Part shown: piece by piece, positions 37,489-54,301 of the stretch | Layout: every line of letters starts with the position of its first letter | How positions within the stretch are numbered: position 1 is the stretch's first letter | Assembly (NCBI RefSeq): GCF_037976825.1 | Contig: NZ_CP150269.1 | Coordinates: 6,799,501 to 6,863,500 of the forward strand | Length of the DNA stretch: 64,000 bases | Direction of reading: 5' to 3' | Source of the DNA: Paenibacillus sp. FSL K6-1330 | GTDB taxonomy: Bacteria > Bacillota > Bacilli > Paenibacillales > Paenibacillaceae | The notes under the pieces: model-generated | Told to the model about the DNA's origin: nothing | Database searches by the model: none | The model's input: only the letters and a program-made list of their open reading frames with translations | Program-made: the position numbers and the translations under genes

Positions 37489-37517
37489 AAATATCTCCTT
37501 TGTTTTCAATAATTATC

Positions 37518-39248
37518 TTATAATCGGCCTGCTACATCAAAAAACCATTCTTTCTCATTCATACTATCCCCAACTAATTGAATTGTCTTGAGAACTTCTT
37601 GGGCCTGCGTTTCGGATCTATGGATACAGAGTAACAAGTAATACAAATAGTATGCATCAGTGAAACATTCAGACACGTGCAATAGGTCTTGAATTACTTG
37701 TAACGCATCATGGTCTCTTTCCAATTCAATCAAACACAGGATAATCCATTTACTACAAACTGGTTTCCATTCGTCGCTTGAATGATTATACTGTCCAATA
37801 AAATACTCTAACGCCTCTAAATATTTTTCATCCATTACATGCTGGATTCCAGCCCAAAACACAACTGATTCTGTTAGATATTTCGGGTTATCTATAGGGG
37901 TGAAGATTCGGGTTGAACTGTTGTTACTGCCACTTTTTCTTGTTGCAGCAATCTCCCACCTCGCGATCGGGTGATCCTGTATCCAATCATAAACTACTGG
38001 AATGTATACCGTATCATCCATCACATGATACAAATTCCTTCTAAATTTAATCTGATCCTCCTTATTTTTAAAGAGTGACTCATCTATTGTAATGTCCCAA
38101 TCCTCGACCTGATTCAAGCTCTCAATTGAATGCGCTGATACATAGAATAAATATTCCATAAGTATTGATACACTATCTTCCCAGTTGTATTTCTTGGCAG
38201 TTATCAGTCCATTTTCCGAGGTTTTTCGGCGTAGTTCCCCATCTTCCAGCAAATTCATTATTCTACAATAAAGGTCGTCTTCGTTACCGATTTCAGCTAT
38301 GAGAATGTTTTCTCCATCGATACCGTATTCCATTACCCCATCATTATTTGTTGATACAACAGGACAGCCGGTAGCCATCGCTTCAATCACAGGAAGTGAA
38401 AAGGATTCAAATTCGGAAGCAGAAACAAACATAATTGCATGCTGGAAAAGCTCTGCTATCTCATTCTGCGGAGGATTTACATACACTCGGTCAGCTGCAT
38501 CTGCCCAGGAATCGCCAGGATTCTTGGGATTAATCCAATAGAGTTTAACTACTGGATATAACTCTTTTACTCTCTGAACAACATTAATAATTCGGGGTAT
38601 TCCCTTAAACGTAATATTCTCATTTCCCATTATGAGAATGTATGGTTCATTATATTTGTTAATATTACTCTTGATAATGGTTGTAAAAACATCATGATCT
38701 ATTGCATTTGGAATGATTACGGAATCTCTTTCAAAATTCTTCTTTAATGAATAAGATGCCTTGTGCGATACCGTCATGATAAATGCGGGAAGTTGCATTT
38801 GTGTCTTAACATAGGATTGTACATCTTCGGATAGACGTTCGATATGAAATAAATGCTCATCACCTTGCTCAAAATAAACAACTGGTGCTATCCCTGTCTC
38901 GATACATGCTTGTATATGATCCCAATAGGTTGCGACTATAACGTCACATAAGGGAATCCCTTGTGCCAGTTCAATCCCGAAGGGAACTTGCTTGTATTCG
39001 GCATAGATTGGATACCAGTCTGGCTTTGGGAAATGCGATACTATACAAACCTCCCATCCTTTTTTCATTAATCTATTAGAATGTTCAAAAATTACTTTTA
39101 CCCCTCCGCACACACTCACATGGGTCATTACATAAACAATTTTCAAGTTTTCTTTTTCCTGTTGTTTAGGAGTGACCTTTTGAGATTGTGCTAGATACAA
39201 ACGTTTGTTACGATCAGAATATTCTCTTTGCCTTAGTTTTGAGATCAT
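37518..39248 (-). CDS. GT4-family glycosyltransferase with a repeat-like C-terminal region
   Basis: 576 aa, cytoplasmic. The N-terminal half is GT-B fold: KIVYVMTHVSVCGGVKVIFEHSNRLMKKG (about 34-62) and the glycosyltransferase-4 C-lobe (LIMGNENITFKGIPRII; FVSASEFESFSLPVIEAMATGCPVVSTNN with the E-x7-E pair around 270-278). After about residue 365 a section of about 200 aa shows helical repeats resembling TPRs (EALEYFIGQYNHSSDEW, DALQVIQDLLHVS). ATG after TAGGAGGGC. Follows the two GT2-TPR genes by 10 nt, so same operon. Probably adds a sugar to flagellin; donor and acceptor unknown. Confidence 0.85.
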   Translation of the reverse strand: MISKLRQREYSDRNKRLYLAQSQKVTPKQQEKENLKIVYVMTHVSVCGGVKVIFEHSNRLMKKGWEVCIVSHFPKPDWYPIYAEYKQVPFGIELAQGIPLCDVIVATYWDHIQACIETGIAPVVYFEQGDEHLFHIERLSEDVQSYVKTQMQLPAFIMTVSHKASYSLKKNFERDSVIIPNAIDHDVFTTIIKSNINKYNEPYILIMGNENITFKGIPRIINVVQRVKELYPVVKLYWINPKNPGDSWADAADRVYVNPPQNEIAELFQHAIMFVSASEFESFSLPVIEAMATGCPVVSTNNDGVMEYGIDGENILIAEIGNEDDLYCRIMNLLEDGELRRKTSENGLITAKKYNWEDSVSILMEYLFYVSAHSIESLNQVEDWDITIDESLFKNKEDQIKFRRNLYHVMDDTVYIPVVYDWIQDHPIARWEIAATRKSGSNNSSTRIFTPIDNPKYLTESVVFWAGIQHVMDEKYLEALEYFIGQYNHSSDEWKPVCSKWIILCLIELERDHDALQVIQDLLHVSECFTDAYYLYYLLLCIHRSETQAQEVLKTIQLVGDSMNEKEWFFDVAGRL

Positions 39249-39258
39249 AAAAGCCCTC

Positions 39259-41139
39259 CTATAATGATCCTGCCCATTCTGACCTTGGAACCATTTCTTT
39301 CATTCGCTTTAAAGCATCCTTCTGAACGTTTTCATCCCCTACTTTTAATGACAATTCGTGAATTTTGTATACAACAGCAAAATCATAAGAACTACTCAGT
39401 TTCAGATATTGGTTGTAGTATTGATAAGCATCACCGTACATTTCCATTTGATTGAGAATATCCCCTGCTAATTCGTACACTTTTGCTTTATCAGTCGATT
39501 CTTCAGAATCTGTCAGTGCCTGTAATGATAATTCAGTAAACTGAAATTTGTATAGCATCCTGGCTAATTCATAACGAATCATTGTAGCATTAACATGATT
39601 CATAAAATACTCTATAACTTCATATTGACGCAACATCAATAAATCGTAAAACAAATCTTCCATCAACGAAACTAATTGAGGACTAACTTCAGCCTCTTGT
39701 ACACCTTCTCTATTGATAATTTTCAACAGGATCCCTTTATCCTTATTACATATACTGAATTCATGTTTAAATTTATTAAAAAAATAAGTATCTCGAGTTA
39801 CAACTGCAAGATACAAAATATCTCGATGGGTACCATCAATTACTCTCTTATTTTTTAAAAGGACCTGCTTAGCCCTTTCATATTCTCCTTCAACTTGATA
39901 AGTCCATGCTGTCATTGCGTCATTCAAATCCTGTTTGAATGATGCTGAGATTATGGTGAAGGCAGGATTTCTAAGAAGATACAGCACTTGCAATAGAAGG
40001 CTCGCTTCTTCTACTGATTCCAAAGTATAAATTGAAGCCAGCTTCTCCAAAGTATCCTTTGGATTTAAGTTTATATATGATTCCAGAAGTATTCTCAGCG
40101 ATGCTGCATGCATTTTATTCTGGGTGAGGCTTTGAAAAATATGTTCGCGAGCAGATTCATAATTGTTCCATTTCATATACATTTCAGCTAGCTGAGCGTG
40201 TGCTAAATATGACCCAACACCTTCCATAGATGAATACAGATGACTGGTAACGTCACCCAACTCCAGACATTTAAGAAATGCAGCCTCTGCATCTTTAAAA
40301 TATTCAATTTCTGTATATAAAACACCCTGTTCATAATATAAATCCGTATATGTCGGGTGAAGTTGAATGAAATCTCCAAGAATTCGTAGTGATTCATCAT
40401 ATCGCTTCAAACTCATTAACGATTGCGTCAAATACACAATCAGTTTAGGTCCAAAAGACATATTCGGATCAAGTCCGTAGGATGTGCTGTATGCTATAAC
40501 GGCTTTATCCATTTCACCAATAGATTTATATTGATTCCCCAGATTGAAGTATCCAAAAGCTGTTGGTTTCCGACGTAGCTCTTCTTCAATAATTCTCATG
40601 TTTCTGCCATGCTTATTTTTATTTTCAATAATGGATTTTTCGTATCCATCATGAATAATGTATACAGACAAGGCACCCGGAGAAGTCTTCGGAAAGTCTA
40701 TGAAATTAATCTGTTCATGAATTGCTCCTTGGTAAATAAATCCTTGAAATCTAGAGTACATTCGAATAAATGAATGAGTGTCGACAATACCGTTTCTGAT
40801 AATATTTCGAATTCTTAAAAAATAATAGTCGGCAGTTAAAGGTTCGAGTAGTAAATGTTTACTCGCAGAATCCAGGTATTCATCAGCATCCAGAGTCAGA
40901 ATATAGTCACCTGTAGCGAATTGTGCAGCAAAATTTCGTGCATCAGAAAAATCGTCATTCCACTCAAAGCTGAATATTTTTGTAGTATATTGGGAAGCAA
41001 TTTCAACTGTTCTATCCGTAGATCCAGTGTCTACTATAACGATCTCATCGACGATCCCTTTTACACTCTCGAGACATCTTTCCAATGTTCGCTCTTCATC
41101 TTTTACGATCATACATAATGAAATAGTTTGAAATTTCAT
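39259..41139 (-). CDS. GT2-family glycosyltransferase with TPR repeats (large)
   Basis: 626 aa. The N-terminal GT2 domain (about 1-230) has VKDEERTLERCLESV, EIVIVDTGSTDRTVEIA, NDDFSDARNFAAQFA and the metal-binding DADEYL at 81-86. The rest (about 190-620) is a long array of TPR-like helices (YFNLGNQYKSIGEMDKAVIAYSTSYGLDP, ADILNQMEMYGDAYQYYNQYLKLS). GT2-TPR proteins in flagellar loci glycosylate flagellin in other Bacillota. Shares its N-terminal half plan with the next gene, a likely tandem duplication with added TPRs. 11 nt after that gene. Confidence 0.88.
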   Translation of the reverse strand: MKFQTISLCMIVKDEERTLERCLESVKGIVDEIVIVDTGSTDRTVEIASQYTTKIFSFEWNDDFSDARNFAAQFATGDYILTLDADEYLDSASKHLLLEPLTADYYFLRIRNIIRNGIVDTHSFIRMYSRFQGFIYQGAIHEQINFIDFPKTSPGALSVYIIHDGYEKSIIENKNKHGRNMRIIEEELRRKPTAFGYFNLGNQYKSIGEMDKAVIAYSTSYGLDPNMSFGPKLIVYLTQSLMSLKRYDESLRILGDFIQLHPTYTDLYYEQGVLYTEIEYFKDAEAAFLKCLELGDVTSHLYSSMEGVGSYLAHAQLAEMYMKWNNYESAREHIFQSLTQNKMHAASLRILLESYINLNPKDTLEKLASIYTLESVEEASLLLQVLYLLRNPAFTIISASFKQDLNDAMTAWTYQVEGEYERAKQVLLKNKRVIDGTHRDILYLAVVTRDTYFFNKFKHEFSICNKDKGILLKIINREGVQEAEVSPQLVSLMEDLFYDLLMLRQYEVIEYFMNHVNATMIRYELARMLYKFQFTELSLQALTDSEESTDKAKVYELAGDILNQMEMYGDAYQYYNQYLKLSSSYDFAVVYKIHELSLKVGDENVQKDALKRMKEMVPRSEWAGSL

Positions 41140-41150
41140 AGTACAACTCC

Positions 41151-42260
41151 TTAAGCTTTCACTGTCTTTACCCGTTCCAAACCTTCGACTGCAGGTACAA
41201 AACCTGCTTCAGCGCTTTTGGAATAACATTTTTTCGCCTCGGCTTGCTGATTAGTCACCTCATAATAAACACCCAAATTATATAAAGCCCTGTAAGAACC
41301 AACGCCTTCTACCGATTCGTAAGATCCATCCGTAATTTCCCCCAGCTGCATACAATATTCAAATACTTCCTTGATTTGAACCAGATCACTAACTTCCTTT
41401 CTTTGTATTAAAGAAAGTCCATATAAAAAGTATAGATCCGTATAATTCGGGAAGAAATCGATGGCATCTTGAAGAAGTAAGTCCAAGGAATCAAATTCAG
41501 CATTATAAAACAAACAATAACCATATGATAAAAACAACGTAGAAATATATTTAGGGATAGAATGTTCCTTAGATAGCATTCTTAGCGCATCATCAAAATA
41601 GAGGACTGCTTCTTTATATTTTTGATCTACAAACAATGTTTGACCAATTTGAAACCTAAAGTACACAGAATCAGGTTCTATCTTCAATTGTTCTTGAAGC
41701 AGCATTATATTCCGTTCTATCTTTGATTTATTTTGTATTTTAGCTTTTTGGTATCCATCATGTAATAGTTTTACATTACTATACCTCGTAGTTTCTAGTG
41801 CTCTCCCTTGAAAACAGAGTTGTTCATGAATAGCTCCACGATAACGATAGCAGGCATTATTCGGGAAAATCCTTGTGATATTGGAGCTTACAGATTTCTG
41901 TTCATTGATAATACTGCTTATAGTCACTGTTGCAGGCACTGTAGGCTTCTTCTTAATAAACTCTCGTAGAGAGCAGATCGATTCTTCGCCCAAAACTTCG
42001 TCTGCATCAATCATAAAGACAAAAGGCTGTTTAGCATGCTGAATAGCGAAGTTTCTGGCATCAGAAAAGTTATTTGCCCACTGAAAAGAAAGCAATTTCA
42101 CCGGATATTTCTGTACTAGATTGACTGTGTCATCAGTTGAGCCCGTGTCTACCACAATAATCTCACGAACAACATTTATTAGAGAAACAATACATCGATC
42201 TATGACCTTTTCTTCATCTCTAACAAGAATACAAGCTGATATCGGTAGCAGATCGTTCAT
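41151..42260 (-). CDS. GT2-family glycosyltransferase with TPR repeats (short)
   Basis: 369 aa. GT2 N-domain: ILVRDEEKVIDRCIVSL, REIIVVDTGSTDDTVNLV, NNFSDARNFAIQHA and the metal-binding MIDADEVL (about 81-88). TPR-like helices follow (YFRFQIGQTLFVDQKYKEAVLYFDDALRML, YNLGVYYEVTNQQAEAKKCYSKSAEAGF). Paralogue of the larger gene downstream. First glycosyltransferase after FliB (14 nt gap), and it may initiate glycan transfer to flagellin Ser/Thr. Acceptor is inference from location. Start ATG at 42260 after AGGAGGGGAC. Confidence 0.88.
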   Translation of the reverse strand: MNDLLPISACILVRDEEKVIDRCIVSLINVVREIIVVDTGSTDDTVNLVQKYPVKLLSFQWANNFSDARNFAIQHAKQPFVFMIDADEVLGEESICSLREFIKKKPTVPATVTISSIINEQKSVSSNITRIFPNNACYRYRGAIHEQLCFQGRALETTRYSNVKLLHDGYQKAKIQNKSKIERNIMLLQEQLKIEPDSVYFRFQIGQTLFVDQKYKEAVLYFDDALRMLSKEHSIPKYISTLFLSYGYCLFYNAEFDSLDLLLQDAIDFFPNYTDLYFLYGLSLIQRKEVSDLVQIKEVFEYCMQLGEITDGSYESVEGVGSYRALYNLGVYYEVTNQQAEAKKCYSKSAEAGFVPAVEGLERVKTVKA

Positions 42261-42274
42261 AGTCCCCTCCTGAT

Positions 42275-43501
42275 TTACTCCTTTAACAATGTAACAATGT
42301 GCGGAAGCGACTCCAGCTTATTTTGACGAAAAAGTTCTGAAATCATATTCATAAAAGAGGCGTTATGCTCAAACACTCGAGTGTAAGATTGGATTATCTT
42401 AATAACTATTTCAGAAGATAATCCTTTATAAAACCCTGATACACCTACCAAATGAATTCTTAAGAGAGAATATAAAATGGACATCCTTGCAAATTGGGTA
42501 AATATATTTCCCTTAACATTGGGGAACAGAGTTTCATAAACATAATTAACTAAATAATTTTCTAAAATATATCCTTGTTGCATCATGAACGGAGTGTAAT
42601 AACTTTTGTGATTCAATTCATAAGATTTAACCAAATCATTTAATTCAATCATTTCTCCCTGAATATTCAAACCTTGTAGCATTTCATGATAGCATTCCAT
42701 GTATCTTGGAATTTCTCCACCTACCGCATTACGTTTTTCAATAATCTCAATGATAAGCTTTAATTGTAATTCATGATTAACTTGAATCCGTGAAAGACTG
42801 GATGTAAATGATTCATCCTGCATTTTGTTTTTATACGCTTTAATTATTGAGGGGATATCATCGTAATCATTTCGATCTATTGCCTGCTGAACTTTATCGA
42901 TAATTAGACCAAGTAGAATCATACGATCATTTAAATGCAGATTTCTATTTTGCAATATTTCAATAGCAAACATTCGTAAATCCCAAAACAAATATTCCCC
43001 ATTGGCAGATTCAGATGTATTCATCCACCCCATCTGTCCCCAATTGTTTTTAAATGCTATATTTGTATACTCAAAATCAATACCCTCGGAATTCAAGAGA
43101 GCCAGCCTAGCAATCTCCGGGCAAGAGAGCTTTGCAGACATTTCCAATGAATCTCCTACCTTGTTAATGACTCTAGGATAAGTACTGCAAGTTCTAGAAA
43201 GCATCTCCTCGCCCACTGAGGCTTGAATTGCACACAATCCACTTTCCTCCAGCATTGGGCAACGACCTTTTTCGCCCATAACGAAACTAGCGTAATAATT
43301 ATCTCCTGCCTCAACATCTTTATTTCGCTTCATAGAATTCTTTAATTTTGCAGTAAGTACAGGTTCCTTTATATTCTTATATTTCTTGTATGTGTCCTTA
43401 TCTAAAGTAACCTTCCATCCAACGCAACAGCTATCTTCACAAGCAGACCCGATACAATTAAAAGTTTTCATATAGGTTGGGATAAGAACTTCATGCTGCA
43501 A
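42275..43501 (-). CDS. fliB: Flagellin lysine-N-methylase FliB
   Basis: 408 aa. The N-terminal cysteine cluster CIGSACEDSCCVGW (about 15-28), preceded by HEVLIPTYMKTF, is the FliB signature. A further cysteine block CPMLEESGLCAIQASVGEEMLSRTCSTYPR lies at about 83-112. These Cys are thought to hold an Fe-S centre. In Salmonella FliB methylates surface lysines of flagellin and promotes adhesion. The TTG start at 43501 after AGGGGTG fits; longer frames run back into the upstream terminator. Heads the run of glycosyltransferases and methyltransferase, forming a post-translational flagellin-modification set. Confidence 0.9.
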   Translation of the reverse strand: MQHEVLIPTYMKTFNCIGSACEDSCCVGWKVTLDKDTYKKYKNIKEPVLTAKLKNSMKRNKDVEAGDNYYASFVMGEKGRCPMLEESGLCAIQASVGEEMLSRTCSTYPRVINKVGDSLEMSAKLSCPEIARLALLNSEGIDFEYTNIAFKNNWGQMGWMNTSESANGEYLFWDLRMFAIEILQNRNLHLNDRMILLGLIIDKVQQAIDRNDYDDIPSIIKAYKNKMQDESFTSSLSRIQVNHELQLKLIIEIIEKRNAVGGEIPRYMECYHEMLQGLNIQGEMIELNDLVKSYELNHKSYYTPFMMQQGYILENYLVNYVYETLFPNVKGNIFTQFARMSILYSLLRIHLVGVSGFYKGLSSEIVIKIIQSYTRVFEHNASFMNMISELFRQNKLESLPHIVTLLKE

Positions 43502-43538
43502 GAATATCACCCCTGTGTAAAATAAAATAATTAGAAAA

Positions 43539-43558
43539 GGGGGCCACATATGGCCCCC
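43539..43558 (-). terminator. Terminator between the VWA/IPT gene and fliB
   Basis: GGGGGCCA and TGGCCCCC with a 4-nt loop, then TTTTCTAATTATTTTATTTT on the minus strand. It separates transcription of the VWA/IPT gene from the fliB-glycosyltransferase run, at least in part. Confidence 0.85.
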
Positions 43559-43576
43559 CAAGAAGCATACTACCGT

Positions 43577-46500
43577 TTATTTATATTCAAAATTCAATGT
43601 CCCGCTACTCTGGCCATCTGAATTAATCAGATAGAAAGACACTATTCCTGCAGATGCTGCCGCCGGAACCTGAAATTTAACTCGCGTGGTGTTCACATAT
43701 GATGCGTTATATTCAACGCCATTAAAGTTAATTTTCGCTCCAGAGGTCAAGTTTCTACCGTCAATATAAATTGTAGTTCCTCCATTAATCGGTCCTGACG
43801 CAGGAGACACTGCAGTAATCACTGGAGCTGGCAACGGTGGTGGCGCTTCGTAAGTAAATGTGGCCACAGCTGACAGGCCTGATGGATTCGTAATTTTGAT
43901 CTCAACCGGGCCAGCAACTCCAGAAGCAGGGGTTGTTATTCTTATTCTGGAAGAGCTGACATAAGTGTAACTTATATTAGAGTTATTCATGCTAACAGTT
44001 AACCCAGAAGCGAAGTAACTTCCATCAATATATACGGTTGTTCCACCAGCTAATGGTCCTTTATTCGGTGTCAATGCAGAAATAGAAGGAATATCCTCTT
44101 GATAGGTAAATGCATTAACCAAATTCGAAGACTTTCCATCCGGATTTGTCAATGTAACATCAACAGATCCGGCAATCGCCGATACAGGCACTCTAACTCT
44201 GACATTAGTTGGGCTCATGTAGGCTGCCAAGGTCAATGGAGTATTTCCAAAAATCACAGTTGCGTCCTTTTGGAAATCAGTTCCAAAGATATCTACAATA
44301 TAACCGCCTCTCATATTGCCTAAGTTTGGAGTAAGGCTTGTAATAACTGGAGCCGGATAAACTGGTGGTGCATCGTAAGTAAATCCACCAGCTAGATCAG
44401 CACTTTGCTCATCTGGATTAATAACTTTAAGATCAACAGGTCCTGGTGCCGCACCCGCTGGAGTGGTAACCTTCATACGAGTAGCGTTCACATATGTTGC
44501 TCGGAGGTCTATTTCTTGACCACCGGTTACAAAATATAATTTAGCCTTAGGATCAATATTTGCTCCATCTACATAGATCACTGTACCTCCTGCTAAAGGT
44601 CCGTTAGCCGGAGAAACAGCTCTTAACGTTGGTGCTGGCTTTGGTGGAGGCGCGTCATACGTAAATGCATCGGCAACCGTTGCTAATTGCTGATCAGGAT
44701 TAACGACAGAAAGAGAGACCTTCTCTGGTTTAGGCCAGGTTGGAGTCACTATTTTCAATCTCGAAGTATTTACCAATGTCGCCTTAAGTTCAGTTCCACC
44801 CCAAATTACTTTAGATCCTGAAACGAAATCACTACCATCAATATAAACTGCTGTACCACCCTCTAAAGGACCATTCGTTGGACTTACAGAAGTGATTGTC
44901 GGTGGTTTAGGTCCTGGTGGGTTTATATATTTGTATGCCTGCTGAAGTAAAGAAATCGTTCCATCTGCATTGACTACTTTCACGTCGACCGTATCTTCCT
45001 GTGTCCACGCAGGTGTCCTTGCAGTTATTTTCTCCTGGCTGTAATAGACGACTCCTGAAGCCAAAGTATCACCAAAGTAAACCTGACTGGTTTTCTCAAA
45101 CATCTTACCGTTTAATGTAACTACTTCATCGCCTGTAGTATAACCTTCAGAAGGCGCAATGCTGATAAGTTCCATTTTAGGTGGTACTTCGTATGTAAAT
45201 GCACCCGGAACAGTTATTGTAGTACCGTCAGAATTCTCTATGGTTACATCTACAGTGCCTGCTTGGTCTGCAGGAGGAGTAATCGCAAACAAATATATGG
45301 AGGAATTAAAGGTTACTGAAGTTGCATAATTCTCACCGATCTTAACCTTTACACCATTCATAAAGTTTTTCCCAGAAATAGCCAATTTCGTCCCACCAGC
45401 CATTGGTCCGGACGGAGGTGTTATGCTACTAACTTCTGGTTGAGCATAATATGCAAAATCCGCTATAGCCGTTTGATTATCAGTATTGATTAATGTAACT
45501 GTTGTGTTACCCTGGTTACCTGGAGGAACAATCACTTCCAGTTGTTGATCACTAATGAAATTAACGGAGGTAGAAAATACCCCGCCAAATTTCACTCTAG
45601 GATTCGGAAGAAAATTCTGTCCTTCAATCACCACTTTTTGTCCGCCAGTAATTACATCTTTATTTGGGGTTACGTTCGTAATTACCGGGGCCGGATTTTT
45701 CACCTCCAAATTAACAGGAGGTATATAATAAGTACGATTTGCCCCCGTATAGTCCTTGTATTTCACATTGGAGCTTGAATTTGTAATCGGAAATATCCCA
45801 TTCTTGCCGTCGGACTTTTGACGAATCTTATACGTGAACGAAAGCGTATCCTGTTTTAACTCAAGGAAATTCCAAGTTAATGTATTTCCCGAAACCGTCG
45901 GCTTTGGAATGTTATTCTCGTAGGATCCTTCGACGATTTCAAATCCGTCCGCAACAGTTTCAGTTACAACTACATCATAAGCACTCGCTAATCCGATTTC
46001 TCTAACGATAGCTGCATAAATTTCAGACAACCCTGTAGAACCGAGGACAAAATGATGATGATGTGATGTTGTGGCCATATCTTTCAACAACTTGTTCGGT
46101 CCACTAGTTGCAGGATCAGTATTTACATCCAGCAATGCAATTGTATAGAATACAACTCCTGCCTCTTTCGCTTCCCGGGCCTTTTTCAAGGTGTAATCAT
46201 AAGCGTTAAGGCCATCGCCGCCTACCGTAGCATCACCATCTGTTAATAACACAATAACTGGTTGAGCCTCTGAACGGTGATTTGCCAACATTTCCTGAGC
46301 TTTTGTAATAGCCTCAGCAGTATTCGTCCCCCCGCTAGCCACTATTTTATCAATATAATTCTTGGCTGCGGAGCCATCTGTTGTAAGTGGAAGGCCTGCA
46401 AAGGCATTGGAAGAATAGTCAAGGATACCAACTTGGTGCTGTGACAGGTCCATCAAATCGATGAAACCTTTAGCTGCTTCCTTAGCGTTATTCATTTTCT

Positions 46501-46747
46501 CAGAACCCATACTCCCAGACCTGTCAATAATAAGAATAACATCATTAGGACGAACAACGTTCACTGGAGGTGTGCCCTTTAAGTTGAGAGTCACCTCAGT
46601 CTCCCCACCGACCAAAATACTTGATGGATTGACCGTTTGCGATGCCGTGACATAATTAACGGCAGCATTAGTTTGTAAATTGGGGAAGATACCGATGCTA
46701 ATTAATATTACTAGGAGCATCGTTAATAACCGCTTACCCTTTACCAT
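43577..46747 (-). CDS. Large secreted protein with a VWA domain and eight IPT/TIG repeats
   Basis: 1056 aa. Basic-hydrophobic signal peptide (MVKGKRLLTMLLVILISIGI, cleavage near TNAA). An N-terminal domain leads to a von Willebrand factor A domain (about 65-260) with the MIDAS motif DRSGSMGSEKM and further TxDG/D residues (LLTDGDATVGGDG). A linker domain of beta type follows (about 265-345), then eight IPT/TIG immunoglobulin-like repeats of about 85 aa (each ITSVSPxxGPxxGGTxVYIDG...). It ends at LNFEYK with no LPXTG, membrane anchor or SLH domain. Likely an extracellular adhesin or filament-associated protein. Start at 46747 follows AGGAGGTTAAGT. Sits 13 nt after the FliT-like gene. Confidence 0.9.
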   Translation of the reverse strand: MVKGKRLLTMLLVILISIGIFPNLQTNAAVNYVTASQTVNPSSILVGGETEVTLNLKGTPPVNVVRPNDVILIIDRSGSMGSEKMNNAKEAAKGFIDLMDLSQHQVGILDYSSNAFAGLPLTTDGSAAKNYIDKIVASGGTNTAEAITKAQEMLANHRSEAQPVIVLLTDGDATVGGDGLNAYDYTLKKAREAKEAGVVFYTIALLDVNTDPATSGPNKLLKDMATTSHHHHFVLGSTGLSEIYAAIVREIGLASAYDVVVTETVADGFEIVEGSYENNIPKPTVSGNTLTWNFLELKQDTLSFTYKIRQKSDGKNGIFPITNSSSNVKYKDYTGANRTYYIPPVNLEVKNPAPVITNVTPNKDVITGGQKVVIEGQNFLPNPRVKFGGVFSTSVNFISDQQLEVIVPPGNQGNTTVTLINTDNQTAIADFAYYAQPEVSSITPPSGPMAGGTKLAISGKNFMNGVKVKIGENYATSVTFNSSIYLFAITPPADQAGTVDVTIENSDGTTITVPGAFTYEVPPKMELISIAPSEGYTTGDEVVTLNGKMFEKTSQVYFGDTLASGVVYYSQEKITARTPAWTQEDTVDVKVVNADGTISLLQQAYKYINPPGPKPPTITSVSPTNGPLEGGTAVYIDGSDFVSGSKVIWGGTELKATLVNTSRLKIVTPTWPKPEKVSLSVVNPDQQLATVADAFTYDAPPPKPAPTLRAVSPANGPLAGGTVIYVDGANIDPKAKLYFVTGGQEIDLRATYVNATRMKVTTPAGAAPGPVDLKVINPDEQSADLAGGFTYDAPPVYPAPVITSLTPNLGNMRGGYIVDIFGTDFQKDATVIFGNTPLTLAAYMSPTNVRVRVPVSAIAGSVDVTLTNPDGKSSNLVNAFTYQEDIPSISALTPNKGPLAGGTTVYIDGSYFASGLTVSMNNSNISYTYVSSSRIRITTPASGVAGPVEIKITNPSGLSAVATFTYEAPPPLPAPVITAVSPASGPINGGTTIYIDGRNLTSGAKINFNGVEYNASYVNTTRVKFQVPAAASAGIVSFYLINSDGQSSGTLNFEYK

Positions 46748-46760
46748 ACTTAACCTCCTA

Positions 46761-47081
46761 TTAGTATTTCTGATCAACAAAGTAAGAATCAGCATATGAG
46801 TTGTTATCATATTGTTTCTGTACTCTCGGGGACATATTATGAACCCTCTGCATCTGATTCATAGCATTTGTCATTAAAGTTTGTATCGCTTTGTTTAAAT
46901 CAGACAATTCTTTCAACAATACAACCTCTTGTTGGCTGTATGCTTCACTCTCCATCAAATTCAAAGCATGATAGAGTTCGTCAATTTCTGTTTCTTTACT
47001 AAGCAATTGCTTTGCATCGCATGACCTTACTATTTCCTCATAAATATACTTTAATCTGCACATTATATCGTATCTTTCCAT
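46761..47081 (-). CDS. fliT: FliT-like flagellar export chaperone (putative)
   Basis: Short, helical, polar protein of 106 aa from MERYDIMCRLKYIYEEIV at 47081. Its Gln/Asn/Met-rich second half and position after fliS match FliT of B. subtilis, which binds FliD during export. Sequence similarity is low by eye, so the call rests mainly on length, helix content and locus. AAAAGGGAAC precedes the ATG; the start begins one base after the fliS stop. Two upstream codons (ATG at 47099) are possible but lack a site. Confidence 0.62.
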   Translation of the reverse strand: MERYDIMCRLKYIYEEIVRSCDAKQLLSKETEIDELYHALNLMESEAYSQQEVVLLKELSDLNKAIQTLMTNAMNQMQRVHNMSPRVQKQYDNNSYADSYFVDQKY

Positions 47082-47082
47082 G

Positions 47083-47469
47083 CTAGTTCCCTTTTCCACT
47101 TTTGACGAGAAGTACTGCCTGCTTCCATGTATCTACCAATTCCCGCGCAAATTCTATAACATTGTCCAATAATTGAAGTTCTTTTTTAATTATGAATTCA
47201 CTGAGCTGTGATAAGTAAAACTGGTACAAATCACGCAATTCATAAGAAATTTGATATTCGAAATTCAATGTACTTAACAATTCATATAATATAGAGCGTG
47301 CACCATGAATGGGTGTGAGCATATCTGCATGCTGATTTTTGTCTAAAAGCATCTTCGCCATGTTCAATTTTCGATACAATTCTTCATATAAAAGAAGAGT
47401 CAGATCACCCGGACTAGCCGTTTCCACTTTTGTTCTCAAATATTGTTGTTGGTAATTGGAAGTAATCAT
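47083..47469 (-). CDS. fliS: Flagellin export chaperone FliS
   Basis: 128 aa, all-helical cytosolic chaperone that keeps flagellin unpolymerised and, in Bacillota, also titrates FliW. MITSNYQQQYLRTKVETASPGDLTLLLYEELYRKL is the FliS N-terminus; NFEYQISYELRDLYQFYLSQL and the C-terminal ELVDTWKQAV are conserved. Start at 47469 with AAAGGGAGAGG upstream; an earlier in-frame start at 47529 is not supported. 60 nt after fliD. Confidence 0.94.
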   Translation of the reverse strand: MITSNYQQQYLRTKVETASPGDLTLLLYEELYRKLNMAKMLLDKNQHADMLTPIHGARSILYELLSTLNFEYQISYELRDLYQFYLSQLSEFIIKKELQLLDNVIEFARELVDTWKQAVLLVKSGKGN

Positions 47470-47529
47470 CAATGTACCTCTCCCTTTAATTAAAATTGAC
47501 TTCGAATATAACGAAGTTGTTAGTGCCAC

Positions 47530-49026
47530 CTACTGTCCTAATTGGGCGCCTAGCCAAGAACCTCGACTGTTTAACTTTTGGATCGCCAGTTCCATAGCAG
47601 TAAACTGCTTGTAATAACGACTTTCAACAGTCTGTAAACGATTATTAACTGTGTTGATCTTATCGTTAATATCACCGATTTGTTTACCTAATTGACTGTT
47701 ATCCTCCACATCAGAAACAGTGCCACTTCCAATCTGTTTAATAATTTTATTGATTTGTGTCGACAAATTATTATACAGTCTCTCGGCGTAGCCTATTTCA
47801 CTTTGATAGTTTTTATCCTTAGGGTCTAAACTGCTTGATTTAGAAAACAAGTCCATAACTCCGTCTGGATTGTTACTCACGGCTTCTTTGAGTTTGTTCT
47901 CGTCTATCGTAAGCTTTCCTAACTCACTCGTTAATCCTTGTGTATATCCCTTGAATGTGATCCCTATATCAGACAAGGAATCCATATTTTTATCAAGGCC
48001 TTTTACATTAGAAATCAACGAGGAGCGCAATAATGACAGTGTATCTTGTAAAATACTATCGCGATATAGCACTCCTGACTTGGCTTTCGTTTCCCAAAGG
48101 TCGATTTGTTTGTCAGTCATTGCTTCCTTTTCTTCATCAGACAAAGGGGCATAATTACGGTTCGGTACAGTTTTGACCAAGGAGTTGACTTTATCAACCA
48201 GCGAGTTATATTGCTCAACAAAACCCTTTATCTGGTCTACAATGCCGGTAGTGTCCCGAGAAACTGAGACTGAAGCAGTCGTTGTTGATACTCCCTTCAG
48301 GTCGAATCGAACCCCATTAAATTCAAATGAGTTGGTTTCCAAGATCATCTCTTTACCATTCAGCTCGACCGTTGCATTTGTACCGGTTACTGTAGCAGGT
48401 GTACTAAGTTTCAATAATGAAGCTGCGGTTCCGCTGGTGTCATTAATCATTACAGAAGCACTAGCACCCGTCGATGTTGAGCTAAGCATAAATCGCTTGT
48501 TTATGCTGTCATAGCTCATGGAAACACCTATATTAGCGCTATTAACCTGTTTTAGTACAGATTCATATGTAGAATCAGCCGTTACTGTAACCTCTATACT
48601 TTTCCCGTCTTTTCCAACAACTTCGAATTTACCGTCTCCAACTATTTCGGAACTGTTTACCTTGGCCTTTAGATCTACAGAAACATTGTTTCCGGTAACT
48701 AGTGCGCTGGTGGCCAGGCTATTTACTTTGATCGTATATCCTCCACTGGTTGCAGTTGATGAAGTTGTGGCTGTTACTACACTAGTGTCACTGCTTACTG
48801 CGGTTTGCTTATTATAAGCGCTAGAGAACCGCATTTTATCTGTTAAGTTTCTGATTGTGGTCAGATGTGTATTCATTTCTCGATATGCATCACGTTTCCA
48901 GGCAATCTTCTGCTTTTGTTGATTCAGTTTGTTTAAAGGAGCTCGTTCTACCTGCATTAATTGCTTAATCATACTATCCGTATCGAGTCCGGAAGCATAA
49001 CCACTCAATCTAATAGGTGAGGACAA
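47530..49026 (-). CDS. fliD: Flagellar filament capping protein FliD
   Basis: 498 aa. Caps the growing filament and inserts flagellin subunits. N-terminal FliD_N (IRLSGYASGLDTDSMIKQLMQVERAPLNKLNQQKQKIAWKRDAYREMNTHL), a variable exposed middle (about 120-300) with Thr/Ser-rich strands, and C-terminal FliD_C (about 330-480) ending in KLNSRGSWLGAQLGQ. The TTG start at 49026 follows AGGAGGTGC at a good distance. 21 nt after flaG, same operon. Confidence 0.95.
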   Translation of the reverse strand: MSSPIRLSGYASGLDTDSMIKQLMQVERAPLNKLNQQKQKIAWKRDAYREMNTHLTTIRNLTDKMRFSSAYNKQTAVSSDTSVVTATTSSTATSGGYTIKVNSLATSALVTGNNVSVDLKAKVNSSEIVGDGKFEVVGKDGKSIEVTVTADSTYESVLKQVNSANIGVSMSYDSINKRFMLSSTSTGASASVMINDTSGTAASLLKLSTPATVTGTNATVELNGKEMILETNSFEFNGVRFDLKGVSTTTASVSVSRDTTGIVDQIKGFVEQYNSLVDKVNSLVKTVPNRNYAPLSDEEKEAMTDKQIDLWETKAKSGVLYRDSILQDTLSLLRSSLISNVKGLDKNMDSLSDIGITFKGYTQGLTSELGKLTIDENKLKEAVSNNPDGVMDLFSKSSSLDPKDKNYQSEIGYAERLYNNLSTQINKIIKQIGSGTVSDVEDNSQLGKQIGDINDKINTVNNRLQTVESRYYKQFTAMELAIQKLNSRGSWLGAQLGQ

Positions 49027-49047
49027 GTAAATGCACCTCCTGTTACT

Positions 49048-49389
49048 TTATTTGCGTTCATCAAGAAAAAGGCCAACCTGTTCACATAAGTTTTGCACCA
49101 AGTCCAGATACTTCTCCGGTGGAATCTCTCTTAAGGTCTCATTAGTTTTCGTGTCCACTACTTTTACGATCATTTGATGACTACTCTTGTGAACTGACCA
49201 CTGTAAGTGTGTATCCATTCTGAGAAGGACCTTGTTTCCTCTATCAATCAAATCGTTTAATCTTTGCTCAGTTACGAGCGAATCAACTTTACTCGTTGCA
49301 GTTTCTTGCTGGCTGTTGATAGTAGAAGCATCTTCGCTGATGATATTAGCCTTTTGTATCGGCCTGTCAGAGAACGAATCAACTCGCAC
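49048..49389 (-). CDS. flaG: FlaG family protein
   Basis: 113 aa, FlaG superfamily. The conserved C-terminal half is RMDTHLQWSVHKSSHQMIVKVVDTKTNETLREIPPEKYLDLVQNLCEQVGLFLDERK. FlaG proteins affect filament length or assembly; the exact role is unclear. The N-terminal 45 residues are divergent and polar. GTG start at 49389 follows AAGGAGC. Lies between the hag terminator and fliD, so read by read-through from hag or its own promoter. Confidence 0.88.
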   Translation of the reverse strand: MRVDSFSDRPIQKANIISEDASTINSQQETATSKVDSLVTEQRLNDLIDRGNKVLLRMDTHLQWSVHKSSHQMIVKVVDTKTNETLREIPPEKYLDLVQNLCEQVGLFLDERK

Positions 49390-49423
49390 TTAAAACAGCT
49401 CCTTATATAGTTTTAAATTTATT

Positions 49424-49453
49424 TAAAAAAGCCGACCGGATAATCCGGCCGGC
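49424..49453 (-). terminator. Terminator after hag
   Basis: GCCGGCCGGA with TCCGGTCGGC (49431-49453), 3-nt loop, one G-T pair, followed by TTTTTTAAA. Strong hairpin that would favour high hag mRNA relative to downstream flagellar genes. Confidence 0.93.
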
Positions 49454-49472
49454 TCCTGCATTAAACCATTGA

Positions 49473-50294
49473 TTAACGGAGCAATTGCAGAACAGCTTGA
49501 GGTTGTTGGTTCGCTTGAGCCAACATAGCAGTAGCTGCTTGTTGCAGAATATTCGTTTTCGTGGATTCGCTCATTTCTTTTGCCATATCTACATCACGGA
49601 TACGAGATTCTGCAGCTTGGAGGTTTTCAGAAGTTGTACCCAAGTTGTTAATAGTGTGCTCCAAACGATTTTGAACGGCACCCAAGCTAGCACGATTCTC
49701 AGAAACGAGATCGATTGCACTTTGGATTTTTTCAAGGTTTTCAGTTGCTTTAGCATTAGTTCCGTCAAGGGCAGCCAAGCCATTAATTTTAAGCTCAGTT
49801 GTAGTGGCTTTAGTGAGGGAAAGAGTAATTGTTTCACCTTTGTTAGCACCCACTTGAAGCACGAGGCTCGCAGGAGCGGAATCACCCAACAAGTTTTTCG
49901 TGTTAAAGCTTGTTTGAGAAGCAATAGCATCAATTTGCTCAGTCAATTGGCCGATCTCGGCATCAATTTTAGCAGTGTCAGCAGAAGTCAACACTTCGTT
50001 AGCTGCTTGAGTAAACAATTCACCCATACGTTGCAGCATGGAATGAGTTTCATTCAATGCACCTTCTGCAGTTTGAATCAAAGAGATACCATCGAGAGCA
50101 TTTTTGTTAGCTTGCTCCAATCCACGGATCTGGTTACGCATTTTTTCGGAAATAGCCAAACCAGCAGCATCGTCAGCTGCACGGTTAATTCTATAACCAG
50201 AAGACAATTTCTCTAAAGATTTGCTTTGAGCATTGTTATTAGCGGTCAATTGACGCTGAGTGTTGTAAGAGCTGATATTGTGATTAATACGCAT
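49473..50294 (-). CDS. hag: Flagellin
   Basis: Filament subunit, 273 aa. The N-terminal D0/D1 is MRINHNISSYNTQRQLTANN and then SLEKLSSGYRINRAADDAAGLAISEKMRNQIRG. The C-terminal D1/D0 is ETISESTKT-type TNILQQAATAMLAQANQQPQAVLQLLR. The central variable part is short (about 140-195), so the surface domains D2/D3 are nearly absent. Post-translational modification by the downstream glycosyltransferases and FliB is likely on the remaining Ser/Thr/Lys, an inference. AAGGAGGAA precedes the ATG. It is controlled by a SigmaD promoter and by CsrA sites in its leader. Confidence 0.97.
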   Translation of the reverse strand: MRINHNISSYNTQRQLTANNNAQSKSLEKLSSGYRINRAADDAAGLAISEKMRNQIRGLEQANKNALDGISLIQTAEGALNETHSMLQRMGELFTQAANEVLTSADTAKIDAEIGQLTEQIDAIASQTSFNTKNLLGDSAPASLVLQVGANKGETITLSLTKATTTELKINGLAALDGTNAKATENLEKIQSAIDLVSENRASLGAVQNRLEHTINNLGTTSENLQAAESRIRDVDMAKEMSESTKTNILQQAATAMLAQANQQPQAVLQLLR

Positions 50295-50400
50295 GATATA
50301 ATTCCTCCTTGGAATGTGTTGGTGATTAGCATCCTTGCTTCACCCTATTGTGATCGAGACATTAGCATACGGCCGTTACTGCCATGTCTTTCGACCCATA
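50295..50400 (-). promoter_or_regulatory. hag leader with CsrA-binding candidates
   Basis: Leader of about 106 nt. Two GGA sites: GCAAGGATGC (about 50324-50333) and the Shine-Dalgarno AAGGAGGAA just before the start. AGACAT/ATGTCT can pair nearby. In B. subtilis CsrA represses hag by binding two such sites, and FliW relieves it. The layout here is the same. Confidence 0.55.
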
Positions 50401-50406
50401 TTATAT

Positions 50407-50433
50407 TTATCGGCTGCATCCTAGGATTGTTTA
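50407..50433 (-). promoter_or_regulatory. SigmaD promoter of hag
   Basis: TAAA (50430-50433), 15-nt spacer, GCCGATAA (50407-50414) on the minus strand. This is a near-perfect match to the SigmaD consensus TAAA-N15-GCCGATAT. Confidence 0.9.
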
Positions 50434-50463
50434 TAGCAGTTTATCAATTTTCCATAAAAATTT

Positions 50464-50700
50464 TTATGCCTTAGACGGATCCATCACTTGTTTCAAAATT
50501 TGTTGAATATCTTCATTAAACTGGATAGCATCTTGATTCTGTTGTTTAATTGCTTCATATATCTCTTCACGATAAATGGTTACATTGGGAGGAGCTTCGA
50601 TACCAATTCTGACCTGATCGCCATTCACTTCAATTACAGAAAGCACAACATTATCGTTAATCATGATCTTCTGCCCTTTATTTCTTGACAGAATCAGCAT
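50464..50700 (-). CDS. csrA: Carbon storage regulator CsrA
   Basis: RNA-binding translational repressor of 78 aa. MLILSRNKGQKIMINDNVVLSVIEVNGDQVRIGIEAPPNVTIYREEIY is the full CsrA core, with the RNA-contact LILSR and the C-terminal strand VTIYREE. The start at 50700 (MLILSRNKG) has AAAGGAGAGG before it; a longer open frame to 50805 is only antisense extension. It overlaps fliW by 23 nt, so the two are translated together. Forms the Hag-FliW-CsrA switch that balances flagellin translation with export. Confidence 0.97.
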   Translation of the reverse strand: MLILSRNKGQKIMINDNVVLSVIEVNGDQVRIGIEAPPNVTIYREEIYEAIKQQNQDAIQFNEDIQQILKQVMDPSKA

Positions 50701-51142
50701 CAAAATCCTCTCCTTTCTTCCTCTCTGACAGCGATATCTTTGTCGAGTAACCTCCATTGTCCAAAACAATTTGAGCAGCAACATTTCTAGCTCTATTGAG
50801 TACAATAGGAGCCCTTAAATTGCAAGAAATATCTTCAGCAGAACGAACAGTAACGACTACCATCACTTGTACATCCTTTTCACTTTCTACACCTAAAGCT
50901 TCTATCCAATGAGAATCTAATTGAAATTCATAATTCTTAAAAAAGGCAAAAGGGTCTGTTACGATAAAGGTTAAATCTTCATCTTCAATGGATTGTAAAA
51001 ACTCAAAAGGACGACGGTCCTCTTCTGACTGAACAACAAAATATTTCGATAATTCTTCGAATCCAAATATTGGGCGCACAAAGGTAATAACTTGATCATT
51101 CATAATCTCTATTGGACCAAATCTCTTTGTATTGACAATCAT
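50678..51142 (-). CDS. fliW: Flagellar assembly factor FliW (CsrA antagonist)
   Basis: 154 aa. FliW binds flagellin and, when free, CsrA. Conserved ITFVRPIFGFEELSKYFVVQSEEDRRPFEFLQSIEDEDLTF (about 19-59), then DPFAFFKNYEF and the typical NLRAPIVLNRARNVAAQIVLDNGGYSTKISL (about 105-135). ATG at 51142 after AAAGGGAGGAA. 74 nt after the DUF6470 gene, a gap with a perfect hairpin. Confidence 0.95.
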   Translation of the reverse strand: MIVNTKRFGPIEIMNDQVITFVRPIFGFEELSKYFVVQSEEDRRPFEFLQSIEDEDLTFIVTDPFAFFKNYEFQLDSHWIEALGVESEKDVQVMVVVTVRSAEDISCNLRAPIVLNRARNVAAQIVLDNGGYSTKISLSERKKGEDFDADSVKK

Positions 51143-51168
51143 GGTTTATATTCCTCCCTTTCTAACAA

Positions 51169-51207
51169 CAATAGCTATAATGACATTTGTCCATTATAGC
51201 TATTGTA
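51169..51207 (-). terminator. Perfect 15-bp hairpin upstream of fliW
   Basis: ACAATAGCTATAATG (51169-51183) pairs exactly with 51193-51207 around a 9-nt loop. On the minus strand TTGTTAG then AAAGGGAGGAA follow, so it could act as an attenuator or as an RNA-stability element. The T tract is weak. Confidence 0.5.
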
Positions 51208-51216
51208 AACCTGTAG

Positions 51217-51792
51217 TTAGACAACTGTATCCAGTTGATTTCCTATTACAGATATATTTATATAATTTTTTTGTGTTAAATAAGTACTGACCTTACCAGG
51301 CTGGTAATCAATTACCGGTTTATGAGTTTCAGGATTAAAAGTGACCCCACCTGGAATATAAGTAGTATTGACCTGTCCGGGGATGAAGGTAATCTCCACA
51401 TTATCATATCCCGGTTCACCCATCACCTCAACTCTTGGCCGGTCCTTAAACACATTTTCCCTAGCAATCTCGGCAAACACGTTCCCGCCTTCTTGAATTG
51501 CCATCATACGATCTCCGTTCTGAGCGATCTCTGCAATGTTTTGCATTGATATTTGTAACGAAGACTGGGCAATACGGTCCGTCAGTTCTTCAATTCGCGG
51601 CTTTCCTAGTGCAGACCAAGCCTTTCTCGAGTCGATCTCCAAGCTCGCCTTAGTTTGTTCCATCTCCACGACACCACGCTGCTGTCTCATGTCGAGAGTC
51701 GGCCTGGGTTGTTCAATACTCAGCTGACCCTTTGTAGTCTGTAGACCAATCTGTGAGTACCCTTGCTGAATCTGTATTCGGGGGATAATCAT
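51217..51792 (-). CDS. DUF6470 family protein (YviE-like)
   Basis: 191 aa. IPRIQIQQGYSQIGLQTTKGQLSIEQPRPTLDMRQQRG and the repeated strands EMEQTKASLEIDS, then VEITFIPGQVNTTYIPGGVTFNPETHKPV. No catalytic motif or membrane segment. B. subtilis YviE lies between flgL and fliW, as here; its role in flagellar assembly is unknown. AGGGGGATTTC precedes the ATG. 10 nt after flgL. Confidence 0.85.
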   Translation of the reverse strand: MIIPRIQIQQGYSQIGLQTTKGQLSIEQPRPTLDMRQQRGVVEMEQTKASLEIDSRKAWSALGKPRIEELTDRIAQSSLQISMQNIAEIAQNGDRMMAIQEGGNVFAEIARENVFKDRPRVEVMGEPGYDNVEITFIPGQVNTTYIPGGVTFNPETHKPVIDYQPGKVSTYLTQKNYINISVIGNQLDTVV

Positions 51793-51802
51793 TGAAATCC
51801 CC

Positions 51803-52696
51803 CTACCTTAAGAAATCCAACAAACTTGGACGAATAATGCGAGCCATGGTGTCTAAAGAAGCCTGATAAACACTCTCAGAGGTTTTGAGATCAATTATTA
51901 CTTTTGATATATCTGCATCTTCAACTTTTGATTGTAGATCCATGTAGTTTATATTTAAATCACCCAGCCTACTAAGAGTAAATTCAAGACGATTTTGCTT
52001 TCCACCCATCTCCGACTGAGCGGTTATTGTCGTCTCGAGATTCTTCTGTAGTGAAGGAATGGCACTTTGGATGCCTGCTGTATCGTCTGCCAACAGCGCC
52101 TTCTTAAGATTATCTACCACAGCAAATATTCCCGTGGCGTCTCCAAACGCTCCAAACACTTTCCCTCCCAAAGTGTTCACAGAAACAGTAATTCCCGCTC
52201 CAACTTGATATCTCACTTCGCCATTATCCAATTCATATGCGGTTTGGGTTGGATCATCAGGGAATGGCTTCTCGTCGGTTCTCTCACCATTAAAAATGTA
52301 CTTCCCTTTGAATTGTGAGTTACCCAAAGAAATCAGCTGTTGATATAACTGATCTACCTCTGCCGCAATATTTACTCTAGCATCTTTCGGTACTGTATCA
52401 GTTCCACCCTGCACCGCCAGTTCTGAAAGTTTTTGAACAATCTGTGTAACTTCGGTCATTACTGTGTCTCCATACTTTAGCCACGCATCTGCATCCTCCG
52501 CATTTTGCTCAAACTGCGTTGTAGCAGTGATTTGACCACGGTATTGGAGCGCACTGGCTACACCCACCGGATCGTCGGAAGGACGGTTAATCCGGCGCTG
52601 GGTCATCATTTGCTCCTGATATTTGTCCAGTCTGCGATAGTTACCTTGCAAACCGCTCATCATGGAGCTAGTCATCATGGATTGGGTTATGCGCAT
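51803..52696 (-). CDS. flgL: Hook-filament junction protein FlgL (HAP3)
   Basis: 297 aa, flagellin-like. N-terminus MRITQSMMTSSMMSGLQGNY and RINRPSDDPVGVASALQYRGQITATTQFEQNAEDADAWL; C-terminus DLQSKVEDADISKVIIDLKTSESVYQASLDTMARIIRPSLLDFLR. Joins hook cap HAP1 to the filament. Shorter middle domain than FlgK. ATG at 52696 after AGGAGGAATAA. 12 nt after flgK. Confidence 0.95.
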   Translation of the reverse strand: MRITQSMMTSSMMSGLQGNYRRLDKYQEQMMTQRRINRPSDDPVGVASALQYRGQITATTQFEQNAEDADAWLKYGDTVMTEVTQIVQKLSELAVQGGTDTVPKDARVNIAAEVDQLYQQLISLGNSQFKGKYIFNGERTDEKPFPDDPTQTAYELDNGEVRYQVGAGITVSVNTLGGKVFGAFGDATGIFAVVDNLKKALLADDTAGIQSAIPSLQKNLETTITAQSEMGGKQNRLEFTLSRLGDLNINYMDLQSKVEDADISKVIIDLKTSESVYQASLDTMARIIRPSLLDFLR

Positions 52697-52708
52697 AAAT
52701 TATTCCTC

Positions 52709-54283
52709 CTATCTGCCGACGACGCCGGTACCGTTGATTAATTTGTCCAGCATCTCATCAATGGTAGTAACCACACGTGATGAGGCGCTGTAAGCATGCT
52801 GGAAGCGGATCAGATCCGACATCTCTTCATCAAGTGATACACTGCTAATCGATAGACGGAGTGTATCGGCATGCTCCACCAACAACGTGCCGTTCTCCAC
52901 CATCTTTTTGGCATTGCTGCTGTCCGTACCCAATTTGGAGATAACTGACTGCAGATATCCTTCAAAATTCGTGATGTCCGTTACTGAACCACTGTTGTTA
53001 TTCGGATTGAAATTAAACGTACGTTCTGACAGTTGCGCAATCAGAAGCGCCATGCCGCCGTTCCCTTTCAGAACCACCTCAGAGGTCGTACCGTTATCCG
53101 GATCAGTCTTCATTTCTGTCCGCAGGGAAGCGCCGATATTCTTCAGATCGGATTGGATCGTCTGGCTTAATCTCATATTCCCAGCGGTAATTGGCCCGCC
53201 GTTAGCAGATACAAAGAAGTCGCCCCCTGTTGTGGCCGGCTCATTAAGGGTATAACCCAATTTATGTAATCCGTTAAGGCCATCAACCGTATGCTTCACA
53301 TCCTGAGCAAGCTTGCGAGGATTATTCGCATCCATAACCGCTTTCGGGATACTCACGCCCGGAGGAAGAATTGTTCCAGCCGGTATGGTCACTTCCACTT
53401 TGCCTGTAGCCAGTGTGTTGGCCATAATGTTCAGCTGGGTGATATATCCTTGAACATGCACATCACGAGAGGTCACATAACCAGCGATCTCCCCACCGGT
53501 CAATGCGCCGGCGATGGCGTTCGTAATCGGAGTAGAAGTCATATCATCCACCACAACTTGATTTCCGAACGTCACTTGATAGACGTCCCCTGTCTCGGTT
53601 ACATTCACGTTCCCGAGCAAGGAGAGCTGATCGATGAGCAGATCCCGCTTATCACGCAGATCATTCGCGTTGTCACCAAGACCCTCAATCCGTTTAATAC
53701 TCTGGGTTAACTCTGCAACTTGGTCGATATAGTTGTTAGCTTCAGCAACCTTAGTGTCAATACGAGAAGTCAGGTTATTGCTGAGGGTATCCAATTGTGA
53801 GTAAATATGGTTAAACGTTTCCGTCAAAGCGATCGCTTTCTGCTGAACCGCCATACGGGCGGACAAGTCGGTGTCGCTCGGATTCTTGCTCAGCGTCTGC
53901 CAAGCCGTCCAGAATTCAGAAATACTTGCACTCAAGCTGCTGTCCGAAGGCTCATTAAAAATCCCCTCAATATTCGAAAGCGTCTCTTGCTGAACGCTCC
54001 ATGTCGACAAATTCGTATTCTGATTGCGATATTCGATATCCAATAAAAAGTCCCGTACCCGCTGAATACTTTCCGCTTCTACACCCATCCCGAGCTGACC
54101 GGCCGCTTGGGAACGCTGCAGTCCCGGGAAAGCAATGGGGTTGGCTGCAACAAGGCGAGTAGTCTGGCGAGAGTATCCTGGCGTATTGGCGTTCGTAACG
54201 TTATGACCAGCTGTGTTAATTGCAGCTTGCTGGGCAATCAAGCCCCTCTTTCCGATTTCGAGCAAATGAAATGTGGATCTCAT
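52709..54283 (-). CDS. flgK: Hook-filament junction protein FlgK (HAP1)
   Basis: 524 aa. First filament-proximal protein on the hook. N-terminal rod/hook domain AINTAGHNVTNANTPGYSRQTTRL (about 20-43), a large middle, and C-terminal LSISSVSLDEEMSDLIRFQHAYSASSRVVTTIDEMLDKLINGTGVVGR. ATG at 54283 after AGAAAGGAAAATG. 18 nt after flgN. GC-richer than the fliD-hag segment to the left. Confidence 0.96.
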   Translation of the reverse strand: MRSTFHLLEIGKRGLIAQQAAINTAGHNVTNANTPGYSRQTTRLVAANPIAFPGLQRSQAAGQLGMGVEAESIQRVRDFLLDIEYRNQNTNLSTWSVQQETLSNIEGIFNEPSDSSLSASISEFWTAWQTLSKNPSDTDLSARMAVQQKAIALTETFNHIYSQLDTLSNNLTSRIDTKVAEANNYIDQVAELTQSIKRIEGLGDNANDLRDKRDLLIDQLSLLGNVNVTETGDVYQVTFGNQVVVDDMTSTPITNAIAGALTGGEIAGYVTSRDVHVQGYITQLNIMANTLATGKVEVTIPAGTILPPGVSIPKAVMDANNPRKLAQDVKHTVDGLNGLHKLGYTLNEPATTGGDFFVSANGGPITAGNMRLSQTIQSDLKNIGASLRTEMKTDPDNGTTSEVVLKGNGGMALLIAQLSERTFNFNPNNNSGSVTDITNFEGYLQSVISKLGTDSSNAKKMVENGTLLVEHADTLRLSISSVSLDEEMSDLIRFQHAYSASSRVVTTIDEMLDKLINGTGVVGR

Positions 54284-54301
54284 CTACATTTTCCTTTCTG
54301 C

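Follow-up and report, generated by a model that had tools for sequence, protein, structure and literature searches.

Gene order and transcription signals

The window, meaning the whole 64,000-nucleotide stretch of Paenibacillus sp. FSL K6-1330 that we analyzed (contig NZ_CP150269.1), carries a run of late flagellar genes on its minus strand. An exact match to the sigma-D consensus, presumably marking a sigma-D site, lies at 50407..50433. It is followed on the same strand by the flagellin gene hag (49473..50294, named by its translation), flaG (also called yvyC; 49048..49389, PF03646), the filament cap gene fliD (47530..49026, PF07195 and PF02465), fliS (47083..47469, PF02561), a small FliT-like ORF with no family match of its own (46761..47081) and, after a gap of 13 nt, an ortholog of cmoA (43577..46747). 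A strong intrinsic terminator stands directly after cmoA (43538..43559), and beyond it are fliB, encoding a flagellin lysine-N-methylase (42275..43516, minus strand; NF038110, E 7e-94), three glycosyltransferase genes, a gene for an FkbM-type methyltransferase, and hpf and secA, the last two again named by translation. Between 35 and 57 kb, the exact sigma-D consensus occurs on the minus strand only ahead of hag; as a measure of chance, the opposite strand has 3 sigma-D-like sites with two mismatches in this interval.

Given the strong terminator between them, cmoA ends its operon and fliB is a separate next unit, and we rejected the possibility that the two share a transcription unit across 43559-43538. 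The first-pass annotation had placed the gene inside the flagellar operon, between a FliT-like gene and fliB; the neighbors and the operon membership hold, but cmoA is the last gene of the operon and the terminator comes before fliB. Among the relatives described below, a terminator lies no more than 130 nt after cmoA in 34 of 44 loci (L036 and L100 were left out of the 46), against 1.3 expected from shuffled sequences. The four genes ahead of cmoA are common to the B. subtilis operon yvyC-fliD-fliS-fliT, but that operon ends without cmoA, while the operon in the window ends with it (PMC5072692, here and below as far as the portion of its text used in this study goes).

The small ORF between fliS and cmoA matched the FliT family (PF05400) in 7 of the 41 slot ORFs at E<=1, with a best value of 6.5e-4, the ORF of the window not being among them. 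The filter for small ORFs passed over L094, L097, and L099 among the 44 slots, which were filled in another scan. The 41 aligned slot ORFs (alignment A3, the one in the window and 40 others) are very divergent, with 10-44% identity to that of the window, although one tyrosine is kept in all 41 and an F-x-D motif near the C-terminus in at least 90%. On the other side of cmoA, after fliB, we noted that window positions 36706-42260 encode two GT2-TPR proteins, a GT1-type glycosyltransferase, and the FkbM methyltransferase. This is probably a flagellin modification island, of which the gene sets vary among relatives.

The CmoA protein

The cmoA ortholog encodes 1056 amino acids: a Sec-type signal peptide (residues 1-28, 46664..46747, judged by eye), a VWA domain with the MIDAS motif DxSxS (residues 69-233, 46049..46543; PF00092, E 6.6e-23), a beta-sandwich, and eight IPT/TIG domains (residues 356-1056, 43580..45682; PF01833, E 6.6e-103), which NCBIfam also reports as eight NF058597 repeats. 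The last IPT domain runs to the final residue, and by eye the C-terminus has no LPXTG motif, SLH domain, or hydrophobic tail. The ORF and the Pfam matches thus confirm what had been read from the letters, namely a secreted protein of this length with one MIDAS-type VWA domain, eight IPT/TIG repeats, and no anchor, the signal peptide and the missing anchor being judgments by eye. The genome has a single cmoA; two further matches in it cover part of the VWA domain only.

We are nearly certain that this gene is an ortholog of the cmoA described in 2016 in Paenibacillus sp. NAIST15-1, where CmoA (PBN151_2348) has 1,064 amino acids, a signal sequence, one vWFA domain, and eight IPT/TIG domains and is encoded in the operon yvyC-fliD-fliS-(99-aa ORF)-cmoA (PMC5072692). 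Both proteins have the same domain layout, and the window gene occupies the same slot, after flaG-fliD-fliS and one small ORF. Similarity extends over the full length, with 58% identity end to end over 1065 columns between the window protein and the CmoA of one sampled genome (G224). That genome is very probably NAIST15-1 itself: its CmoA (1064 aa) and its small ORF (99 aa) have the published lengths, while its flaG ORF measures 120 aa from the first ATG, and the published 111 aa fits only with a later start. The window CmoA is therefore an already described family member in its described place, and the idea that this slot was unreported is not borne out, as the same operon position is in print (PMC5072692). 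What sets the window apart is that its cmoA is known from sequence alone and is adjoined by fliB and glycosyltransferase genes.

A model of the CmoA head resembles the VWA pilus-tip adhesins SpaC, PitA, and Mfa5, with modest similarity over the whole chain (TM 0.37-0.54). Like these adhesins (SpaC 6m3y, PitA 7w6b, GBS104 3txa, Mfa5 6to1), CmoA carries at its N-terminal end a VWA domain embedded in a beta-sandwich. Unlike them, CmoA lacks the LPXTG-type C-terminal sorting signal of a sortase-anchored protein, has no adjoining pilus genes, carries its head on an IPT stalk, and is encoded in a flagellar operon. Foldseek hits of the full-length model to plexins, the neck of a grappling-hook protein, and other Ig-like chains (TM 0.1-0.2) were set aside as repeated Ig folds rather than kinship.

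Distribution among relatives

CmoA occurs in 14 of 100 genomes sampled from the genus, all with E <1e-163; the next match, at 1e-15, covers the VWA part only. Among 295 family genomes, 34 matched at E<=1e-40, four of which are shared with the genus set, and a class sample of 398 genomes gave 7 matches, consisting of four already known, one with IPT domains only, and two new. These samples of genus, family, and class together gave 46 CmoA genomes. A scan of genome contigs gave one locus, in Paenibacillus campinasensis, probably that of a genome already sampled. FliD_C, in contrast, was found in 100/100 genus genomes, so cmoA is an optional extra. In 20 flagellar loci examined from the 86 genus genomes without cmoA, no VWA match followed fliD.

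Where cmoA is present, its position is nearly fixed. In 44/46 genomes it comes immediately after fliS and one small ORF; the copy of G620 sits between hag and flaG, and that of G137 has been relocated beyond prfB, outside a flagellar cluster that looks otherwise complete. The proposed membership in the flagellar operon could have failed if relatives kept the gene elsewhere, and it held up, with one gene moved within the cluster and one outside it.

All 46 proteins have a Sec-type N-terminus (by eye) and keep the MIDAS motif. The head is constant, while the number of IPT domains ranges from 7 to 19; this range excludes L036, where an in-frame stop splits the gene with 4 IPT domains ahead of it, and L100, which has an assembly gap. 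None of the complete orthologs has an anchor. Stops interrupt cmoA in G063 (L036) and fliD in G066, reflecting either sequencing errors or decay. The second copy in G102 (L104) and the match in G548 (L119) were dropped from the count, since they belong to an IPT-only family without a VWA match. In G391 (L117:4969-9048) we also noted that a group II intron lies after cmoA and that beyond it another secreted protein with IPT domains only is encoded (751 aa, no VWA). Its C-terminal domain recurs at the end of the L104 protein, and L119 has a similar IPT match.

Co-divergence and segment exchange

The divergence of CmoA tracks that of its operon partners and not that of the flanking chromosome. 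Pairwise distances of the CmoA head correlate with those of FlaG (r 0.70), FliS (0.50), and FliD (0.47) across 45 loci, and also with those of CsrA (0.40), FliW (0.35), Hag (0.34), FlgK (0.33), FlgL (0.27), and DUF6470 (0.27), in each case with 0/499 permutations as high. There is no correlation with the flanking Hpf (r -0.03, n 24, 287/499 permutations as high) or SecA (r 0.15, n 22, 43/499). The head alignment (A1) held 45 of the 46 loci, without L082, and the distance test 45 of 46, without L086. Simple linkage may explain part of this co-divergence. The correlation with flagellin is weaker than that with FlaG.

A second genome of the same species (G070; L037, L151, L152) gives a view of how the segment changes. 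There the counterpart of window positions 36505-54795 has been replaced, while the flanks are 94-98% identical; inside the segment, blastn gives only two matches over 150 columns. The replaced 18 kb comprises the late flagellar and glycosylation genes, running from flgK past those for the glycosyltransferases, and the two versions are alike only at the protein level. Both carry cmoA, and their CmoA proteins are 46% identical.

A c-di-GMP riboswitch ahead of some cmoA genes

When all 46 genomes were scanned with Rfam, 8 had a c-di-GMP-I aptamer (RF01051, or RF03167 in G235) directly before cmoA, scoring 57-75 bits. The genomes are G102, G132, G137, G142, G152, G235, G253, and G270, and the loci are L053, L060, L062, L066, L071, L072, L101, and L102. 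When the loci are grouped by how closely their FlgK matches that of the window, the riboswitch is present in 8 of 17 loci at 41-46%, in 0 of 27 at 64-100%, and in neither of the 2 loci from the other family. The cmoA of the window itself has no aptamer by Rfam and no sigma-D-like site of its own.

A terminator follows the aptamer by 3-14 nt in 7 of the 8; none was found by the same test in G235. In predicted folds of the transcript, taken as far as the loop of the terminator, the 5' arm of the terminator pairs with the 3' end of the aptamer or with the linker in 5 of these 7, and the other two show no such pairing. An arm held in this way would be part of an antiterminator, which points to an OFF switch, and the ligand-free folds thus suggest that the cmoA riboswitch turns expression off when c-di-GMP is bound.

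Candidate sigma-A-like sites precede some of the aptamers, and in G137, with its relocated cmoA, a candidate sigma-D-like site with one mismatch lies ahead of the aptamer. No such site, even with two mismatches allowed, lies close to the start of any of the 43 cmoA genes in flagellar clusters that we scanned. Other long leaders, in L052 (G120), L068 (G206), and L073 (G240), gave no c-di-GMP aptamer in a permissive Rfam search. By eye, the leaders of G120 and G206 look degenerate; each retains a terminator at its end, and aptamer-like letters survive in that of G206.

Discussion

What CmoA does has been studied in NAIST15-1, which comes from the rhizosphere (PMC5072692). A cmoA deletion mutant spreads on 0.3-0.5% agar and not on 1.0-1.5%, still makes flagella and swims, and is rescued by filtered wild-type secretions, whereas secretions of a hag mutant rescue it only partly. 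CmoA-mCherry is seen around cells and clusters, CmoA fractionates like flagellin, and its amount is lower with hag deleted, which could be a regulatory effect. The cmoA transcript is agar-induced and much larger than 23S rRNA. Added CmoA had no effect on the motility of P. alvei or E. coli and a slight, inconclusive one on B. subtilis. Kobayashi et al. prefer extraction of water or smoothing of the surface as the mode of action, with stabilization of clusters as a speculation (PMC5072692).

Based on these results and the conservation described above, we think it very likely that the window CmoA acts in collective surface motility. We place similar confidence in the explanation of the gene as a whole, in which the most likely mechanism is a Sec-exported, unanchored linker that attaches to cells and flagella and keeps moving clusters together. 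In this scheme, cmoA, at the end of the late flagellar operon, would be expressed with the filament proteins, and its product would leave the cell by Sec and remain unanchored outside. The integrin-like MIDAS head, constant in the orthologs, may dock through a metal on a ligand of the cell surface or the filament, and the stalk of 7-19 IPT domains may serve as a hydrated, length-variable linker or lubricant between neighboring flagella and cells, so that linked clusters would stay together and wet while moving over hard surfaces. The first-pass suggestion of a filament decoration or a flagellum-associated adhesin survives in part, being close to a proposal of Kobayashi et al. for CmoA (PMC5072692). 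We give an even chance to the narrower claim that CmoA works by binding cells or filaments and not as a free wetting agent.

The wetting-agent reading holds that CmoA is a free secreted protein that draws water from the agar or smooths surfaces, its association with cells and flagella being incidental. It is the preference of the authors, it agrees with rescue by secreted fractions and with the lack of an anchor in every complete ortholog, and we consider it a real if less probable possibility. However, CmoA is found mostly around cells, strict conservation of the MIDAS motif implies a specific ligand, and the lack of effect of added CmoA on P. alvei or E. coli fits a specific partner as well (PMC5072692). 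It is improbable that the main role of CmoA is to attach cells to plant roots or other surfaces, with co-expression with flagella a matter of chance: the modeled head does resemble pilus-tip adhesins and NAIST15-1 is a rhizosphere strain, but the mutant phenotype appears on bare agar (PMC5072692) and we saw no anchor that would hold an adhesin on the cell. Exit by way of the flagellar channel, with CmoA serving as a cap or as part of the filament, was also raised at first and has in its favor that the gene stands among filament and export-chaperone genes. It is very improbable and we reject flagellar export, given the Sec-type N-terminus of all orthologs, which fits the Sec export likewise proposed, the large folded domains, the presence of FliD, and the flagellated, swimming cmoA mutants (PMC5072692).

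We lean slightly toward the view that CmoA is a collective-motility module that can be detached from the flagellum and is recombined together with filament types, and that in one sub-lineage its own c-di-GMP-I riboswitch, predicted to be OFF, uncouples CmoA from the filament, such that flagella would be kept and CmoA stopped when c-di-GMP rises. The portion of the NAIST15-1 account used here mentions neither a range of 7-19 IPT domains nor the riboswitch found in 8/46 genomes, and the words riboswitch and c-di-GMP are absent from its main text (PMC5072692). A c-di-GMP riboswitch before cmoA is also not reported in the titles and abstracts searched, a search with most subscription journals outside it, or in the portion used of PMC12452182. 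Within the literature searched, the control of cmoA by a riboswitch in a sub-lineage, the range of IPT numbers, and the exchange within a species of a late flagellar segment together with the cmoA that it carries go beyond what is in print.

An odd-looking VWA-IPT protein is now tied to a published phenotype, and its spread and its tight bond with the flagellar operon are shown in the genomes sampled. With the riboswitch copies, it can be tested directly if c-di-GMP uncouples the swimming of single cells from collective movement over surfaces. The orthologs, in which a constant MIDAS head is followed by anything from 7 to 19 IPT domains, are a natural structure-function series for how CmoA works, a question that dates from 2016.
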